DNA of 64,000 bases from Halolamina sp. CBA1230 (lineage in GTDB: Archaea > Halobacteriota > Halobacteria > Halobacteriales > Haloferacaceae). Below, in pieces: positions 18,440 through 61,224 of this stretch. Location of the stretch: NCBI RefSeq assembly GCF_002025255.2, contig NZ_CP054587.1, forward strand, positions 1,612,001 through 1,676,000, given 5' to 3'. The notes below the pieces were generated by a model. The model was not told where the DNA came from. It was given only the letters and a program-made list of their open reading frames with translations, and did not search any database. The first letter of the stretch is position 1, and every line of letters starts with the position of its first letter. Both the position numbers and the translations under genes were made by a program.

Positions 18440-19330
18440 ATGCACGGCTGGGGCGTCACGGAGGCGCTGGCCGGCCTCCCGGAGTCGGTCGTCCTCCTGT
18501 TCGCACTCCTGACGCAGTTAGCCGACGCGTGGTTCGTGTTCGGCGGCCTCGCCCTGCTCTACCTGCTCGGCGACGAGCGGCTCGCCTCCGACCCGCGACG
18601 GACCGGCGCGACGCTGATCGCGCTGGCGACCTGTGCGCTCGCAGCCACGGTCGCGCTCAAGACCGCTTTCGGCGTCCACCGCCCCGCCGGCGCGGGGACG
18701 GCGACGCCACCGGCGTGGCTCCCCACGCTGTTCGACACCGTCTACGCGAGCATCGCGACCGGCGACGGGTTCGGCTTCCCCAGCGGGCACGCCACTTCGA
18801 GCAGCGTCGTTTACGGGGGACTGGCGCTCTCGCTCGACCGCCTCTGGAGCCGGCGGCGACGGGTCCTCGCCGCCGCCGGCATCGTCGGCATCGTCACGCT
18901 CTCCCGCCTCGTCCTCGGCGTCCACCACCTCCCGGACGTGCTCGCCGGGATCGTCGCCGGCACGACGGTGCTCGTCGCCGTCTGGGGACTCGCCGGCGAC
19001 AACCCCGAACGGACGTTCCTCGCGGCCGGCGTCCTCGGGGCGGCGGCGCTCGTCGCGGCGTTCGTGTTCGCGCCGAACAGCCCCGACGAGGCGCTGAAAG
19101 CCGCTATCGCCCTCGGCGCCGGCGCCGGCGCAGCAGTCACGTGGCGTCGTGTCGGCGGCGAGTACCCGCCGCTGCCCGCTCGTGTCGCGCTCCCCGGCGT
19201 CGCGGTCCTGGGCGGGGCATGGGGGGGGATCTACGTCGGCGAACTCCCGATCCCGGTGACAGTCCTCGGGTCGGCGCTGGTCGTCGCCGGAGTGGTCGCG
19301 CTGCCGTGGGTAGTCCACCAGCGTGCCTAG
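18440..19330 (+). CDS. PAP2 family membrane phosphatase
   Basis: A 296-residue multi-span protein with all three PAP2 motifs: KTAFGVHRP (K-x6-RP), FPSGHATSSS (PSGH) and SRLVLGVHHLPD (SR-x5-H-x3-D). It should dephosphorylate a lipid phosphate such as a polyprenyl or archaeal lipid phosphate at the membrane. It starts immediately after the YihY stop. The UbiA enzyme next door is divergent, so a shared prenyl-lipid theme is possible but unproven. Confidence 0.92.
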   Translation: MHGWGVTEALAGLPESVVLLFALLTQLADAWFVFGGLALLYLLGDERLASDPRRTGATLIALATCALAATVALKTAFGVHRPAGAGTATPPAWLPTLFDTVYASIATGDGFGFPSGHATSSSVVYGGLALSLDRLWSRRRRVLAAAGIVGIVTLSRLVLGVHHLPDVLAGIVAGTTVLVAVWGLAGDNPERTFLAAGVLGAAALVAAFVFAPNSPDEALKAAIALGAGAGAAVTWRRVGGEYPPLPARVALPGVAVLGGAWGGIYVGELPIPVTVLGSALVVAGVVALPWVVHQRA

Positions 19331-19797
19331 TCGAGCGACTTCTCCATCACGACCTCGTCGTACTCACGGTGGGAGAGCGGGTAGTCGCCCGTGATCTCGT
19401 ACCCGTGGGCGTGGTAGAACTCGGGGAGGAACGGGTGCTCGCCGGGCGTAGTGAGCTGTACGGTCGTGTAGCCCGCCTCGCGGGCGGCGCCCTCGGCGTG
19501 TTCGAGGAGGCGACTCCCGACCCCCTCACCTTTCCAGCGCTCGCGGACGCCGAGGCGGCTGAGCGTCGCGGTCGCGTCGTCGGCGGCTTCGAGCCGGACG
19601 CCGCCGATCACCTGGCCGTCGTGCTCGGCGACGAACACGCGGTCCGCACGGACCCACTCCGCGACGTCGGCGGCGGTCGCCGAGCCGGCTTTCGCGGGGA
19701 AGCCGAGTTCGCGGTTCTCCGCGTAGGCGTCGCGGTAGGCGTCCGCCAGCGCCTCGACGTCGTCGTTGGTCGCCTCGCGGAGCGTTACGTCGGACAT
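19327..19797 (-). CDS. GNAT family N-acetyltransferase
   Basis: A 156-residue acetyltransferase. It begins VTLREATNDDVEALADAYR, has the acetyl-CoA pyrophosphate loop in LGVRERWKGEGVGSRLLEHAE (R-x-x-G-x-G/S type) and ends with FYHAHGYEITGDYPLSHREYDEVVMEK, typical of small-molecule or amino-terminal acetylases. The substrate is unknown. It overlaps the end of the convergent PAP2 gene by four bases. It lies downstream, on the same strand, of glnA and the hairpin array. Confidence 0.88.
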   Translation of the reverse strand: MSDVTLREATNDDVEALADAYRDAYAENRELGFPAKAGSATAADVAEWVRADRVFVAEHDGQVIGGVRLEAADDATATLSRLGVRERWKGEGVGSRLLEHAEGAAREAGYTTVQLTTPGEHPFLPEFYHAHGYEITGDYPLSHREYDEVVMEKSLD

Positions 19798-19917: not shown

Positions 19918-20155
19918 AAACCCCGCGGAGGCGGGTTTTGGCATCATCAGGATCGCGGAGCGATCCTGATTAGCAGCCAGAATCTTCGATTCTGGCAGCA
20001 TCACCGGAAATCTCCGATTTCCGGTTAGCAGCGAGGAGCTTCGCTCCTCGCGACATCACCAGAATCGCACCGCGATTCTGGTTAGCAGTCAGAACGCTTC
20101 GCGTTCTGACGACATTGCGGAGCGAAGCTCCGCAGGCAGCCGGACGGAGTTCGGC
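19918..20155. repeat. array of nine short hairpins with conserved linkers
   Basis: The glnA-GNAT gap (19798-20225) holds consecutive perfect or near-perfect palindromes. Stems of 7-11 bp enclose loops of three bases, except in the first, whose loop is four and whose stem has a mismatch. Examples: 19946-19970 (ATCAGGATCGC/GCGATCCTGAT), 19976-19996, 20003-20025 (ACCGGAAATC/GATTTCCGGT), 20031-20051, 20058-20082, 20088-20110, 20116-20134. Linkers alternate between TAGCA and (AG/GA)CATC. Stems share little sequence while linkers are kept. The last (20139-20155) needs one G-U pair. A longer inverted repeat, TTTTACC/GGTAAAA, follows near 20168-20215. Confidence 0.9.
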
Positions 20156-20225
20156 CACATCAACGGGTTTTACCAGAGTTCGACCGAGCGAAGCGAGGGA
20201 GGACCCCGGTAAAAGAGGTTGAAGT

Positions 20226-21581
20226 TTAGAACTTCTCGAGGTAGCGGTCCAGCTCCCACTCGGAGACGTCGACGAGGTACTCCTCGAACTCCGCACGCTT
20301 GGCTTCGACGAACTTCGGCCCGACGTGGGGGCCGAGCGCCTCGTAGACGGTGTCGTCCGCCTCCAGCGCGTCGACGGCCTCGCCGAGGTTGCTCGGCAGC
20401 GTGTCGATGCCGTACTCCTCGCGCTTCTGCTCGTCGAACTCGTAGATGTTCTCGCGGATCGGATCCGGACAGTCCATCCCCTTCTCGATCCCGTCGAGGC
20501 CGGCGTGGATCAGCACCGCGAAGGCGAGGTAGGGGTTACACGACGGGTCGGGGAAGCGCGCCTCGATGCGGGAGGCGGCGGGCACACGTGCGGCCGGCTT
20601 GCGGATCAGCGCCGAGCGGTTGCGGTCGGACCACGCCACGTAGACGGGCGCCTCGTAGCCGGGGACGAGGCGCTTGTAGCTGTTCACGGTGGGGTTGGTC
20701 ACGGCTGCGAGCGCCGGCGCGTGGTCGAGGATCCCCGCGGTGAACTGCTTGGCCTCCTCGCTGAGGTCGAACTCGTCGTCCTCGTCGTGGAACACGTTCT
20801 CGCCGTCGTCGAACAGCGAGATGTGGGTGTGCATCCCCGAACCGTTCACCTTCGCGATCGGTTTGGGCATGAACGTCGCGTGGAGGTCGTGCTGGGCGGC
20901 GATCGCCCGGACGACCGTGCGGAACGTCGCGACGTTGTCGGCCGTCGAGAGCGCGTCTTCGTACTCGAAGTTGATCTCGTGCTGGCCCTCGGCGACCTCG
21001 TGGTGGGACGCCTCGATGTCGAACCCCATCTCCTCCAGCCCGTAGATGATGTCCCGGCGCACGTCGCTGGCGAGATCCTTCGGCGCCACGTCGAAGTAGC
21101 CGCCGGCGTCGTTGGTGTCCGTAGTCGCGCCGCCGTCCTCGTCCTCCTCGAACAGGAAGAACTCGGGCTCGGGCGCGGCGTTGACCTCGTACCCCATCCC
21201 CTCGGCGCGCTCGAGGGCGCTCTTCAGCACCGCACGCGGGTCGCCCTCGAACGGCTCGCCCGTCGACGTATCGATCACGTCACAGATGAGCCGCGCGGAG
21301 GTGTCGCGCCACGGCAGCACCGAGAACGTGCTCGCGTCGGGCTTGAGGCGCATGTCCGACTCCTGGATGCGGACGAACCCCTCGATCGAGGAGCCGTCGA
21401 AGTAGATCCCCTCGGTGAACGCCTTCTCGGCCTGATCGGCCGGCACGGCGACGTTTTTCACCGTCCCCAGGATGTCCGTGAACTGGAGTCGGAGGAAGTC
21501 GATCCCTTCGCGGTCGATGCGTTCGAGCACGTCCTGTTCCTCGTCGGTAAGGCCGCCGTCTGGTGTCGGGTCGTCCGTCAT
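20226..21581 (-). CDS. glnA: glutamine synthetase type I
   Basis: A 451-residue GSI enzyme that forms glutamine from glutamate, ammonia and ATP. Seen: [18 protein letters not shown] near the N-terminus, [20 protein letters not shown] (metal ligands), [15 protein letters not shown], the [29 protein letters not shown] region here abbreviated by its [10 protein letters not shown] core, and [17 protein letters not shown]. Length fits the GSI-alpha class, which lacks the adenylylation loop. It is divergent from an Lrp regulator, a pairing known from other haloarchaea, and its transcript would run into the hairpin array. Confidence 0.96.
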
Positions 21582-22261: not shown

Positions 22262-22592
22262 CCGCGGAGTGAGCTTGGCCACTTGTACCGCAACGCTCAG
22301 CACAGCCCTCACACCTCCCCAGCCGGTTCGCTCCCTACAGTCGCTCACCCCTCGCGCTGTCGTACGGGCGACGCACGGGTCGCCCGTACGGCCTGCGGGA
22401 TCTTCGATCCCGCTCTGGCTCGTCCACGGAGGGACTCGCGCTTCGCGCCGACAGCCGCGGCGGTGCGGTGGCGGTGGACGCCTCGCGCTCGCCAACGTGG
22501 CGAGCGCGGGGGGAGGGGTGCGGAATCGGTACCGCGCCGGGCCTCGTGCCCGGCGCCCTGCGGTCACAAGTGGTCATGCTCCGAGATGCTGT
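22262..22592. mobile_element. X-family MITE-like element, copy X3
   Basis: The 22172-22673 gap has no credible gene. The right end is canonical (gcggtcacaagtggtcatgc then tccgagatgctg). The left end is the alternative type, accgcggagtgagc followed by a degraded ccacttgtaccgc. The core cctccccagccgg and the end-proximal gccgggcctcgtgcccggcg hairpin are present. Internal hairpins include an 11-bp stem on CGTACGGGCGA and GCGGGATC ttc GATCCCGC. Confidence 0.62.
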
Positions 22593-35659: not shown

Positions 35660-35985
35660 CGGTGGCGCGAAGCGGGCGAGCCCTCGTGGCTCGCCTCAGC
35701 GCGAGGGACGACTGAGCGCCAGCGAAGGAGTCGGCTGGGGAGGTGTGAGGGCTGTACGGGTGGGACTGAAAGGGGCTGCCCGTCGCCGGGCGGCGTCGCC
35801 GCCCGGCTGCTAGAGGGAGCTTCGCTCCCTCCGTGCTCCGGGAAGCACGACGAAGTAAGCACGCGACCGAAGGGAGCGCGCACAGCGAGTCGCGCGACCG
35901 GAGCGAACAGGGGCTTTCACCGTGATGCCGATACCGACTGCTCGGAAGGAGGAACGAACAGTAGCTTTCACGGTGTTTTTTTTTT
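35660..35985. repeat. Y-family intergenic repeat, copy Y3 (with insertion)
   Basis: The 35605-36140 gap carries cagcgcgagggacga, gagtcggctggggagg, gggactgaaaggggctg and, twice, the Y tail (ggggctttcaccgtgatg and gtagctttcacggtgtt). Compared with copies Y1 and Y2, it has an extra stretch of about 50 bases between ggctgcccg and ctccgggaag. A run of T residues ends it. From 35990 to 36105 nothing further is evident. Confidence 0.62.
35785..35831. repeat. two-hairpin unit inserted in repeat Y3
   Basis: Two perfect hairpins with three-base loops lie back to back: GCCGGGCGGC gtc GCCGCCCGGC (35785-35807) and GAGGGAGC ttc GCTCCCTC (35813-35831). They are separated by TGCTA, the reverse complement of the TAGCA linker of the 19.9-20.2 kb hairpin array. 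The other Y copies lack this stretch. Confidence 0.8.
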
Positions 35986-42202: not shown

Positions 42203-42283
42203 ACCAGATGAAACAAACCACGCTACGATGGCGGGGCGACTCCCCGACGTATAAGCAACTTCATCCGTATATGTGAAAACACA

Positions 42284-43501
42284 GTGGAGTACCGTCGTAC
42301 CGCCGTCATCAAACTCGACACTCCCGAAGGGGCGGACGCCTCCCTTCGAGAGACTGTCGAGCAGTTCAAACACTGCGCCAACACCGCGAGCGGGTGGTGC
42401 TGGCACGGCGACGACGGATACCACGTCACCTCGAAAGCCAAAGCCGAACGCGCCCTCTACGACCGACTGCGTGACGAAACTGACCTCACCGCGAATCTCG
42501 TCCAGAAAGGGATTCGACGGGCAGTCGAAGCCGTCAAAAGCGGAGTCGAACGCCTCAAACGTGGCGAGAACACGTCGCAACCGCACTTTTCTGCCGATAG
42601 CGCGGTGTACGACAAGCGAAGCGCGACGTTCCACCGAGATCACGTATCGCTGTCTACCGTAGACGGGCGCGTCGAGTGCGATTACATTCTCCCCGACGAC
42701 CCGGAGACACCACCCGCCAAGTACGTTTCTGACGAGGATTTCGAGTTTCGGATGGCGCACTTGCAGTACCGCGATGGTGACTGGTATCTCCACGCTTCGA
42801 TGCAGAAAGTCGAAGCAGACGAGGAAGCGCCTGAATCCGAGTCCAAGCACAGAACAGTCCTTGGTGTGGATTTTGGCGTGAACAACCTCGCTGTTGCTTC
42901 GACAGGGCGATTCTGGTCGGCGGACGAGTTCAACCATTGGCGACGAGAGTACGAGAAGCGTCGTGGCTCGCTTCAGCAGTGCGGGTCTCGCCACGCCCAC
43001 GAAAACATCGAGTCAGTCGGACAGAAAGAGTACGGACGCTTCGAGATACACCTGCACACGGTGGCGAACGAACTTATCGAGGAGGCCGTCGAGAACGACT
43101 GTTCGCACATCGTGTTCGAGGATTTGACTCACATTCGGGAGAACATTCCCGAAGCGACATGGCAACACGTCTGGGCGTTCCGACGCCTCTACGAGTACGT
43201 CGAATACAAAGCCAAAGAACACGGTGTTGAAGTCGTACAGGTTGATCCGCGCAACACGTCGAAGCGTTGCTCGACGTGTGGGTTTACCCACGACGATAAC
43301 CGTGACGGGGAGTCGTTCGAGTGTCAGCAGTGTGGGTATGAGAACCACGCCGACTACAACGCTTCCAAGAACATCGGTTTGCAGTATCTCCGTCGTCGGC
43401 AAAAGGCAGACGATGGAGGCGCACCCGTAGATGTGCGCTTGAATCGCGGGACGTTGAACGTGAGTGGGGAGTACGTGCCCCCTGCTTCGGGTGAGGCATA
43501 G
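42284..43501 (+). CDS. tnpB: TnpB RNA-guided endonuclease
   Basis: A 405-residue TnpB from a GTG start, with the TATA-like gtataagc about 30 bases upstream. The RuvC-like catalytic triad is complete: Asp196 in LGVDFGVNN, Glu279 in IVFEDLTHI and Asp357 in HADYNASKN. The zinc ribbon is Cys329/Cys332 and Cys347/Cys350. TnpB cuts DNA guided by an omega-RNA made from the element's own right end. Length and motifs show no truncation, so the protein may be active. Mobilisation would need a TnpA supplied from elsewhere. Confidence 0.93.
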   Translation: MEYRRTAVIKLDTPEGADASLRETVEQFKHCANTASGWCWHGDDGYHVTSKAKAERALYDRLRDETDLTANLVQKGIRRAVEAVKSGVERLKRGENTSQPHFSADSAVYDKRSATFHRDHVSLSTVDGRVECDYILPDDPETPPAKYVSDEDFEFRMAHLQYRDGDWYLHASMQKVEADEEAPESESKHRTVLGVDFGVNNLAVASTGRFWSADEFNHWRREYEKRRGSLQQCGSRHAHENIESVGQKEYGRFEIHLHTVANELIEEAVENDCSHIVFEDLTHIRENIPEATWQHVWAFRRLYEYVEYKAKEHGVEVVQVDPRNTSKRCSTCGFTHDDNRDGESFECQQCGYENHADYNASKNIGLQYLRRRQKADDGGAPVDVRLNRGTLNVSGEYVPPASGEA

Positions 43502-51990: not shown

Positions 51991-52117
51991 CATCACCGCG
52001 GTGTCGCCCGCACCACCACGGTTGGCGGTCACCGTGGTGTCGCTCTCACCACCACGGTTGTCCATCACCGCGGTGTCGCGCTCACCCCCGCGGTTGACCG
52101 TCACCGCGGGGTCGCCC
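51991..52117. repeat. 36-bp tandem repeat, three copies plus a part
   Basis: tcaccg recurs at 51993, 52029, 52065 and 52101, exactly 36 bases apart. The unit is roughly tcaccgYggtgtcgc, then ctcaccaccacggttg. In either direction it reads as a 12-residue repeat because 36 is divisible by three, but neither frame belongs to an adjacent gene except the last few bases, which enter the ModE-like gene's 3-prime end. A minisatellite-like expansion. Confidence 0.85.
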
Positions 52118-52781
52118 TCGTCGCCGTCGCTTTGAACGACGCCACCACCTCGCGACCGGGTTCGAGACCGAGGCGGTCGCGGCTCTCCTCGGTCACGAGC
52201 GCGACCAACGACGCGTCGGCACCCACGTCGACCGAGACGCGGGAGACCGACTCCCCCCGATCCACCTCGACGACCTCGCCCGAGAAGCGGTTGCGCGCGC
52301 TCGTCGCGTCGCCGGTCGGCGTGTTCGCGGGGTCGTGCAGCGTCACCGCGTCGGCCCGCAGCACCACCTCGACCGCGTCGGCGTCGGGCGGGACGAGCGC
52401 GCGGACCGTCCCCGCAACGGTCTCGACGGTGCCGAGCTCGCCGGCGCGGTCGATCACGTCGCCGTCGAGCACCGTCTCGGTGGTCTCCGCGATGGCGCTG
52501 TACCCCGCGCGGAGGCGATCGAACGCCGCCAGCAGCTCGCCGGCGCGGTCGGTGAGGGTGCTCCCCCCGCCGCCGCTGCCGCCGCGCTGGCGCTCGACCA
52601 ACGAGCCGAACGCGTCCTCCAGCTCCGTGAGCCGGTCGTGCGCACGGGAGTACGACCGCCCCAACGCCGACGCCGCGGCGTTGAGCGACCCGGCCTCGTC
52701 GACCGCCCGCAGTAACTCGGCGTCGCGCTCGCCGAACGCCACCCCGTCGGCCCGGAGCGTGGCGTCGAACCCTGCGTCCAT
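52101..52781 (-). CDS. ModE-like regulator with TOBE domain
   Basis: A 226-residue protein. Residues 1-110 are a ModE winged helix (LLRAVDEAGSLNAAASALGRSYSRAHDRLTELEDAFG) and residues about 155-220 a TOBE ligand-binding domain (ARNRFSGEVVEVDRGESVSRVSVDVGADASLVALVTEES). ModE senses molybdate; substrate specificity here is not visible. Its C-terminus reaches into the 36-bp repeat. It diverges from the metal exporter operon and may regulate it. Confidence 0.85.
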   Translation of the reverse strand: MDAGFDATLRADGVAFGERDAELLRAVDEAGSLNAAASALGRSYSRAHDRLTELEDAFGSLVERQRGGSGGGGSTLTDRAGELLAAFDRLRAGYSAIAETTETVLDGDVIDRAGELGTVETVAGTVRALVPPDADAVEVVLRADAVTLHDPANTPTGDATSARNRFSGEVVEVDRGESVSRVSVDVGADASLVALVTEESRDRLGLEPGREVVASFKATATRATPR

Positions 52782-59839: not shown

Positions 59840-60538
59840 ATGGCTGACCCCTACGGCCGGGCCATCCGTGACTTCCATCGGGACGAGCAGGACGAGCCCC
59901 TGATCGACCGCGACGGCGACGAAAGCCGTGACCATGCGATCGAGGAGTACTACTTCGGCGAACACACGCCGGAAGAGTGGTTCGAACCCCGCGTCGACGG
60001 GCCGCTGCTGGATATCGGCGCCGGCGCGGGACGGGACGCACTGTACTTCCAGGAGCGCGTGGAGACGGTCGCACTCGAGGTGAGCGAGCATCTCGTGACG
60101 GTGCTGGAGGAGCGCGGTGTCGAGAATGCGCGGCTGGGCGACATGTTCGCGCTCCGGGAGCAGTTCGGCCGGGACCGCTTCCAGGCGGCGCTCGCGGTGG
60201 GGACGCAGATCCAGTTGGCGCCCTCCGATCACGCGCTCCGTGAGTTCCTCGCGGATCTCGCCCACGTCACGACGCCCGACGGCGTCGCCCTGCTACACGG
60301 CTACGACCCCGAAGCTGCGGTCGAGGAAGACGTGTTCGCCTGTCGCTCGGACCCCACGTCCGGGATCGCTCACCGCGTCTACCACAGCGAGTACGAGGGC
60401 GAGGTAGGTGAGACGCTCCTGTTCAGGCTGTGCAGCGTCGACCGCCTCCGCGAGGCGACCGTCGGCACCGCGTGGCACGTGGCCGACAGCCGGCAGGAGG
60501 ACGTGACGTGGCTGGCAGTGCTGGAGAAGGACGAATAG
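59840..60538 (+). CDS. SAM-dependent methyltransferase
   Basis: A 232-residue class I methyltransferase. The SAM-binding loop is GPLLDIGAGAGRDALYFQE, followed by an acidic strand end (VALEVSEHLVTVLEE) and FQAALAVGTQIQLAPSDHALREFL. The N-terminal lead MADPYGRAIRDFHRDEQ with EEYYFGEHTPEEWFEP is shared by haloarchaeal members. The substrate is unknown. It ends just before the triple hairpin repeat. Confidence 0.87.
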   Translation: MADPYGRAIRDFHRDEQDEPLIDRDGDESRDHAIEEYYFGEHTPEEWFEPRVDGPLLDIGAGAGRDALYFQERVETVALEVSEHLVTVLEERGVENARLGDMFALREQFGRDRFQAALAVGTQIQLAPSDHALREFLADLAHVTTPDGVALLHGYDPEAAVEEDVFACRSDPTSGIAHRVYHSEYEGEVGETLLFRLCSVDRLREATVGTAWHVADSRQEDVTWLAVLEKDE

Positions 60539-60640
60539 TGGCCGCGGGAACGGTCACCCGCGGCGTCAGTAGGGGCCGCGCGAACGGCCACCCGCGGCAT
60601 CAGTAGTGGTCGCGGGAACGGTCACCCGCGACATCAGTAG
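60539..60640. terminator. 34-bp hairpin repeated three times between convergent genes
   Basis: Units 60539-60572, 60573-60606 and 60607-60640 each contain an 8-bp stem around aacggYca and end in cagtag. Stems are GCCGCGGG/CCCGCGGC, GCCGCGCG/CCCGCGGC (one mismatch) and GTCGCGGG/CCCGCGAC. The array begins right after the methyltransferase stop and contains the stop of the convergent glycosylase gene. It would present hairpins to transcripts from both sides, so it is likely a bidirectional terminator or 3-prime end protector. Confidence 0.6.
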
Positions 60641-61224
60641 TCGCCCAGCCGGGACTGCCCGCTCTCGCCGTCGGCGACGCCGGCGAGTTCGGCGGCGCGG
60701 GCGATAGCGTCCGCGAACGTGTCGCGCTGTGAAGCGTCGTACAGCGTCGCCGCGGGGTGGACCGAGAGCAGGACGCGCTGGGAGCGGTCGCCGATCCGGG
60801 CGTCCTGCACCTCGCCGGCCTCCTTCGTCACCGCCACGTCGCGATCGAGCAGGTGCTCGCTGGGCACTTTCCCGAGCGTGACCACCAGCTCCGGATCGAC
60901 GGTCTCGATCTCGCGTTCGAGGTAGCTCCGGCAGTTCGCTAGCTCCTCCTTGTGGGGGTCGCGGTTCTCCGGCGGCCGGCAACGCACGCAGTTGGTGATC
61001 CGGACGTCCGAGCGGGCGAGTCCCGCGTCCCGCAGCGCCTCGTCGAGCACGTCGCCCGAGCGGCCGACGAACGGCTCGCCACCCTCGTCCTCCTGCTGGC
61101 CCGGCGCCTCGCCGAGGAAGAGGAGGTCGGCGTCTGCCGGCCCGACGCCGTTGACGATGCGGCTCCGTGACTCGACAAGCGCGGGACAGCGTTCACAGGA
61201 CTCCACGCAGAGGCCGTCGTTCAT
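60634..61224 (-). CDS. uracil-DNA glycosylase, family 4 type (4Fe-4S)
   Basis: A 196-residue enzyme that removes uracil from DNA. The active-site motif is GEAPGQQEDEGGEPFVGRSG and the second motif is LSVHPAATLYD. Cysteines 10, 13, 82 and 98 sit where the iron-sulfur cluster ligands are in family 4. The start MNDGLCVESCERCPALVESR fits the family; the longer frame is shadow of the dipeptidase gene. It ends inside the third hairpin repeat unit. Confidence 0.9.
   Translation of the reverse strand: MNDGLCVESCERCPALVESRSRIVNGVGPADADLLFLGEAPGQQEDEGGEPFVGRSGDVLDEALRDAGLARSDVRITNCVRCRPPENRDPHKEELANCRSYLEREIETVDPELVVTLGKVPSEHLLDRDVAVTKEAGEVQDARIGDRSQRVLLSVHPAATLYDASQRDTFADAIARAAELAGVADGESGQSRLGDY

Follow-up and report, generated by a model that had tools for sequence, protein, structure and literature searches.

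Rickettsia palindromic elements (RPEs) are mobile palindromes which are found in frame inside unrelated protein genes, where they add a peptide to the product, and also in intergenic regions. CGTC-tagged REPs occur as head-to-head dimers of hairpins with CGTC on the outside and a CCA tail; they have intragenic copies and no known transposase (PMC3733652). Their stems measure 8–9 bp, start with two A-T pairs and enclose loops of 4–5 nt, and Di Nocera (2013) names no archaeal CGTC repeats (PMC3733652). Two further systems were described in Haloquadratum. PATEs are terminal-only, transposase-free elements of ~52 bp with two near-terminal palindromes (PMC3119063). The SMR-A elements of Haloquadratum walsbyi are ~110 bp long and bounded by prominent terminal inverted repeats; no duplication is reported for them, and they insert within the near-terminal palindromes of IS605-type elements and PATEs by an unknown mechanism (PMC3119063). 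Neither an earlier report of the element described here nor any report of protein-coding mobile palindromes in archaea was found in the open-licence literature.

The window analysed, a stretch of 64,000 nucleotides from Halolamina sp. CBA1230, contains a row of hairpins between glnA (20226-21581, minus strand, with Gln-synt domains) and a gene coding for a GNAT acetyltransferase (19327-19797, minus strand). A hairpin scan detected seven perfect hairpins between 19946 and 20134, with stems of 8–11 bp and loops of 3 nt throughout (19946-19970, 19976-19996, 20003-20025, 20031-20051, 20058-20082, 20088-20110 and 20116-20134). An eighth with one mismatch was located at 20139-20155. The same scan revealed no second cluster of at least three such hairpins in the 64-kb window. 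The initial annotation had counted nine hairpins over 19918-20215: the row is real, but the number is nearer eight, and the extent was drawn too wide, the core spanning 19942-20159 on the minus strand and the outer parts being other sequence. To the left of the core lies a GCGGGGT/ACCCCGC hairpin that is separate from the element sequence, and the right flank is formed by an inverted repeat, GGGTTTTACC...GGTAAAA (20165..20214), which is common to the orthologous locus of H. salifodinae (G003). Folded as DNA, the array strand reached -79.8 kcal/mol, against -36.7 +/- 3.3 kcal/mol for shuffled versions (z = -13.2). In a related scan, 40 hairpin clusters were counted in real loci and none in 40 shuffled loci.

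The array was resolved into hairpin pairs of about 55 bp, as had been proposed before. Copy E3 (19944..19998, minus strand) reads CT[GCCAGAATC GAA ..]TGCTA[ATCAGGATCGC TCC ..]GA and is flanked by TG (CA on the plus strand) at 19942-19943 and 19999-20000. It is followed on the same strand by E2 (20001..20053), TC[GCGAGGAGC GAA ..]TGCTA[ACCGGAAATC GGA ..]GA, and E1 (20056..20112), TC[GTCAGAACGC GAA ..]TGCTA[ACCAGAATCGC GGT ..]GA, both with TG flanks. The diverged copy E0 (20115..20157, minus strand), TG[GCCGAAC TCC GTCCGGC]TGCC[TGCGGAGC TTC GCTCCGCA]A, also lies between TG flanks, and its subtype was found in other genera (L109, L149, L167). The linkers TAGCA and AGCATC/GACATC alternate as the initial annotation had it, degeneracy being confined to the last junctions (GACAT, GGCA). 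Two alternating linkers result from the structure of the unit, one being the inner spacer (TGCTA/TAGCA) and the other the junction GA-TG-TC, in which adjacent copies share one dinucleotide. Most probably, three recognisable copies and a diverged fourth are stacked in tandem here, all belonging to a non-autonomous, mobile, palindromic DNA element found in haloarchaea. A possible diverged relative on the plus strand at 35785..35831, GTC[GCCGGGCGGC GTC ..]TGCTA[GAGGGAGC TTC ..], was left out of the family, as it has no GA-YG end; a Halorientalis IS200/IS605 has a very similar pair on its tnpB side.

The element was defined as 5'-TC[hairpin 1, ~23 nt]TGCYA[hairpin 2, ~23 nt]GA-3'. It is typically 55 bp long, and exactly so in 107 of 148 distinct copies, a set which is biased by the search pattern. 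The TC and GA ends are complementary to one another, while the dinucleotide outside them is a direct repeat (TG..TG or CG..CG) that is present only once in empty sites. TGTC..GATG was the most frequent flank arrangement (87/148), followed by CGTC..GACG (25/148) and CGTT..GACG (10/148). The inner linker is TGCTA in 88 and TGCCA in 49 of the 148 copies, and its pyrimidine tracks the flank: TGCTA was found with TG in 83 cases and never with CG, TGCCA with CG in 37 cases and with TG in 5. This association was maintained when a single copy was taken per unrelated site (22:4 vs 2:21, P = 7e-8). A guide pairing between linker and target of the IS608 type was considered and rejected, as the two covarying positions carry identical, not complementary, bases, so that simple pairing within one strand fails.

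The stems had been described as almost unrelated and freely varying, which was overstated. Most of the 53 distinct perfect stems follow one consensus, RYCRGAANNC, with a typical stem of 10 bp and a loop of 3 nt. The two stem classes recognised earlier (G...C for odd and A...T for even stems) hold, most hairpin 1 stems beginning with G and most hairpin 2 stems with A, and the last base of the stem is always C. That the stems agree with a dispersed family of repeats sharing a consensus is the observation which the initial annotation had itself named beforehand as speaking against its interpretation. Loops of the type C(GNA)G or its complement make up 74/141 (52%) in the element, but with 116/318 (36%) they are also frequent in other perfect hairpins of the same genomes and were discarded as a special signature. 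In haloarchaeal perfect hairpins with 3-nt loops generally, C was the closing base in 238/318 cases.

The distribution of the element was investigated with the pattern TGCTAAYC..GRTGATG, copies of which were detected in six of seven Halolamina genomes, with almost none for the reversed control. A covariance model of 58 nt (R1), the kind of search proposed in the initial annotation, recovered E1 with 71.4 bits (G000:C1:1632054-1632113) and gave matches in 140 of 148 genomes and 27 of 28 genera of the taxonomic family. Counting both strands, and as rough figures, at least 117 matches were obtained in the genome of the window (G000), at least 151 in G003 and at least 100 in G004, and at least 10–30 in each of the remaining congeners (at least 23 in G001). 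Carriers include Halorubrum, Halobellus, Halorientalis, Halegenticoccus, Haloferax and Halobacterium. Most plasmid records with a match contained no annotation at the match position. In a scan of the phylum, 23 of the 31 genomes with an R1 match belong to the same order, and the matches in the eight genomes outside Halobacteriales were weak. Conservation outside the order was rejected for the only one of these genomes that was inspected (G188), where the match proved to be another kind of hairpin repeat, one that lacks TGCYA. This A+T-richer archaeal genome displays a different tandem hairpin repeat at L342 (CAAAAATCC, GCATTTAAAAATC, ACTGAAAATC). In the genome of the window, many copies (L347, L351-L357, L359 and L360) share one position within a longer intergenic repeat (..ggggaggggtggggactcggcgctgcgccgtt[..]gacggacctcgtgtccggc..) that has spread as well.

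Comparison of filled and empty sites defined an insertion footprint of 57 bp (55 + 2), with the same YG left on both sides. In dapA, an insert of exactly 57 bp is present in G003 and G004, and the site is empty in four congeners and in four other genera. A second site was found at the right end of tnpB, where L229, L230 and L231 are filled and L232, L234, L243 and L244 are empty. In the filled copies the element lies inside the terminal stem CCCCACCCT/AGGGTGGGG, which is unbroken in the empty relatives, and the empty sequence GAGGGTGGGGC becomes GAGGG-TG-TC[..]GA-TG-GGGC. A CG site was identified in a glyoxalase-like gene of G001, where GGGCGTCGACGCC corresponds to GGG-CG-TC[..]GA-CG-TCGACGCC; the gap is less exact here, as the linker peptide around the insert is variable. 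An intergenic site of G003 shows a 57-bp gap compared with G004 and G000. The synteny block used (5 x 140 kb) contained six copies only, leaving two informative sites. Judged from these alignments, the repeated YG could come from duplication of the target or be a target-specific end that belongs to the element. No recent transposition within one species was seen.

Since 57 bp (3 x 19) correspond to 19 codons, genes survive the insertion. Among 141 classifiable copies, 22 were located in frame in sequence that is apparently coding on both sides, as called by a frame-composition heuristic, by which a few may have been assigned to the wrong strand. The in-frame copies mostly read like V-DESRRLSSANQNAERSGDV-D, and the apparent carriers, with motifs judged by eye, include DapA, an FtsJ-like methyltransferase and an acyl-CoA synthetase-like protein. 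Two tandem copies in apparent coding sequence, giving two adjacent inserts of 19 residues, were observed at L112 (~2252-2340) and L179 (6795-6878). A dispersed protein-coding palindrome with a defined 57-bp footprint is thereby available in most haloarchaeal genera examined, including the genetically tractable Haloferax. This allows tests of what mobilises hairpin repeats that have no transposase, and of how proteins tolerate and use 19-residue inserts encoded by a palindrome.

The element would be mobilised in trans by a transposase or recombinase which recognises folded DNA hairpins and joins them at a YG dinucleotide. Arrays could arise when a copy inserts beside another, or by unequal exchange or tandem duplication of a 57-bp unit; the GA-YG-TC junctions are the product expected from insertion beside a copy or from 57-bp tandem duplication. 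A broader proposal remains tentative and has less than an even chance of being right. It regards the element as a haloarchaea-wide class of ultra-short DNA hairpins with a rule of its own, in which joining occurs at YG and the fourth base of the inner linker agrees with the first base of this dinucleotide (TGCTA with TG, TGCCA with CG). The class would combine an enzyme reading folded DNA, coding inserts of 19 residues and constant exchange of hairpins.

By analogy, TnpA of the IS200/IS605 family would be the natural candidate for the mobiliser, and among the alternative identities the one built on it survives best, although it is doubtful. The element may be a terminal-only derivative of IS200/IS605 like the PATEs, hairpins 1 and 2 being the left and right ends of a transposon which has lost its core and is moved by TnpA as single-stranded DNA; if right, this would identify the machinery that the favoured account requires. 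Both are similarly short, transposase-free and haloarchaeal with two palindromes, and the 52-bp PATEs reported in Haloquadratum (PMC3119063), the related hairpin pairs beside tnpA/tnpB in Halorientalis and the copies within tnpB right ends are all in favour. However, the ends of a PATE are those of an IS605 transposon, whereas in the Halolamina loci examined the element was inserted into such an end, the tnpB copies breaking the right-end stem instead of being its native hairpins. IS200/IS605 leaves no duplication; the YG is repeated at every defined insertion, as a duplication or as a target-specific end. Moreover, no significant R1 match was found beside any of 12 Halolamina TnpA (Y1) loci, and the number of Y1 genes bears no relation to that of the elements (one Y1 gene with at least 151 matches in G003, none with at least 23 in G001). 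With neither linkage nor a copy-number relation within the genus, TnpA was dismissed as an obvious driver. As to the IS200/IS605 family itself, the window contains an intact TnpB gene at 42257-43492 (plus strand) which is 52% identical to the TnpB of L046, and about 46 TnpB matches, many of them degraded, were counted in the same genome. A variant hairpin pair with the linker TCGCACA ([ACGAGACGC]tcgcaca[CCAGAACGC]ggacg) was found repeatedly close to IS200/IS605 genes (L363 2490-2552, L366 1507, L082 1631).

Kinship with SMR-A, for which IS605-type transposons and PATEs are targets in Haloquadratum, is unlikely. The element is likewise very short and haloarchaeal, and a subset of its copies interrupts the right-end stem of tnpB much as SMR-A insert in near-terminal palindromes. 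SMR-A target mainly other mobile elements, whereas many copies of the present element are found elsewhere, and ordinary genes are also targeted. SMR-A, known here by description, have about twice the length, long terminal inverted repeats and no duplication, in contrast to 55 bp, a terminal complementarity limited to TC/GA and a repeated YG.

Common descent with the CGTC-tagged REPs and RPEs, of which the element would be the archaeal branch, is also unlikely. Paired hairpins and intragenic copies are shared with the former, and the outer CGTC of some copies and the TGCCA between the hairpins may correspond to the tag and the CCA tail of the REPs. With the RPEs, taken by description, it shares a location both intergenic and in frame in unrelated protein genes (22/141, among them dapA and the glyoxalase-like gene). 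But its stems of 10 bp start with R-Y-C and lack the A-T first pairs of the 8–9-bp REP stems, the loops count 3 instead of 4–5 nt, and the element has arrays and a TG subfamily, which reveals that the tag is a direct and not an inverted repeat. It also differs from the RPEs (~100–150 bp) by its 57 bp, its archaeal host, two separate short hairpins, the footprint of 55 bp plus YG and the tandem arrays. BIMEs or REPINs with RAYT, the bacterial GTAG REPs, display similar paired hairpins, arrays at gene ends and a presumed mobilisation in trans as single-stranded DNA, but the element has neither a GTAG tag nor a linked RAYT. Failing on stem and loop size for the REPs and on length for SMR-A, it was assigned to neither family. 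The remark in the initial annotation that REP repeats do not behave in this way was nevertheless wrong in spirit, as the element is a mobile palindrome of the REP/RPE kind.

To explain why the stems change and stay complementary, the initial annotation had offered selection on a folded RNA or DNA, or a copying process; copying at the DNA level is retained and selection on RNA is not. According to the RNA explanation, which is very improbable, the folded hairpin row at the 3' end of glnA acts in transcript stability, processing or termination, and its stems are preserved by compensatory mutations. The very strong folding, the position directly downstream of glnA and the complementarity of changed stem pairs at orthologous places of G000 and G003 are consistent with it. 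However, among six congeners only G003 has an array 3' of glnA and another gene occupies this place in the remaining five, so that the array is absent in five of seven Halolamina genomes. The same hairpins occur alike in unrelated protein genes, intergenic repeats and tnpB ends. Imperfect stems contain 20 G-T and 23 A-C mismatches (P = 0.76, from a small sample of 43 informative pairs), and this equality gives no sign of selection on a transcript. No Rfam family matched the element at gathering score (best E 0.46, below the cut-off). On distribution, mismatch symmetry and the absent Rfam match, a selected RNA at glnA was dismissed.

What the glnA loci display instead is hairpin exchange between family members. 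The array of G003 consists of two units, the flanks and linkers of which align with those of the window array. At the orthologous place, hairpin 2 of E2, ACCGGAAATC-GGA, is identical including the loop, and the other matching places of G003 carry hairpins from elsewhere in the window array, again with the loop (GCCAGAATC-GAA, ACCAGAATCGC-GGT). As read from this alignment, entire hairpins are swapped between the two Halolamina species with flanks and linkers kept, and changed stems stay complementary because the hairpins are exchanged as a whole. More generally, the complementarity of the stems would be preserved by copying or conversion of entire hairpins from other members of the family, and any influence on the 3' end of glnA would be secondary. 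Structure that is kept while sequence changes is here explained without a functional RNA, which calls for caution in covariation-based RNA discovery.

Both loop orientations were found on the same stems (GAA 39 and TTC 31, GGA 33 and TCC 24). In dapA of two species, the loops are GAA in one and TTC in the other with all 40 stem bases identical and flanks that are 13.7% different. This suggests an arm-to-arm inversion, a process that would flip the loops, or copying from other family members.

The remaining candidates were set aside. Some copies lie in the 3' end of tnpB, where the omega RNA is made, but the element is an insertion there, and the existence of empty tnpB copies with an intact right-end stem rules out native omega RNA hairpins. 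A CRISPR array, with identical repeats and unique spacers, does not fit self-complementary units separated by linkers of 5–6 nt, and a simple tandem repeat was ruled out, Tandem Repeats Finder giving no report at the array. Elsewhere in the window, the same program reported a repeat of 36 bp x 3.5 at 51993-52119 and one of 34 bp x 3.2 at 60536-60645 (TAGTG..ATCAG, with a palindrome inside). Finally, a 12-bp hairpin accompanied by a second hairpin (CGTACGGGCGAC../GCGGGATC..) was observed at 22361-22413 and in L047; it recurs close to an array of the element at G000:C1:2325 kb and belongs to a longer dispersed repeat.
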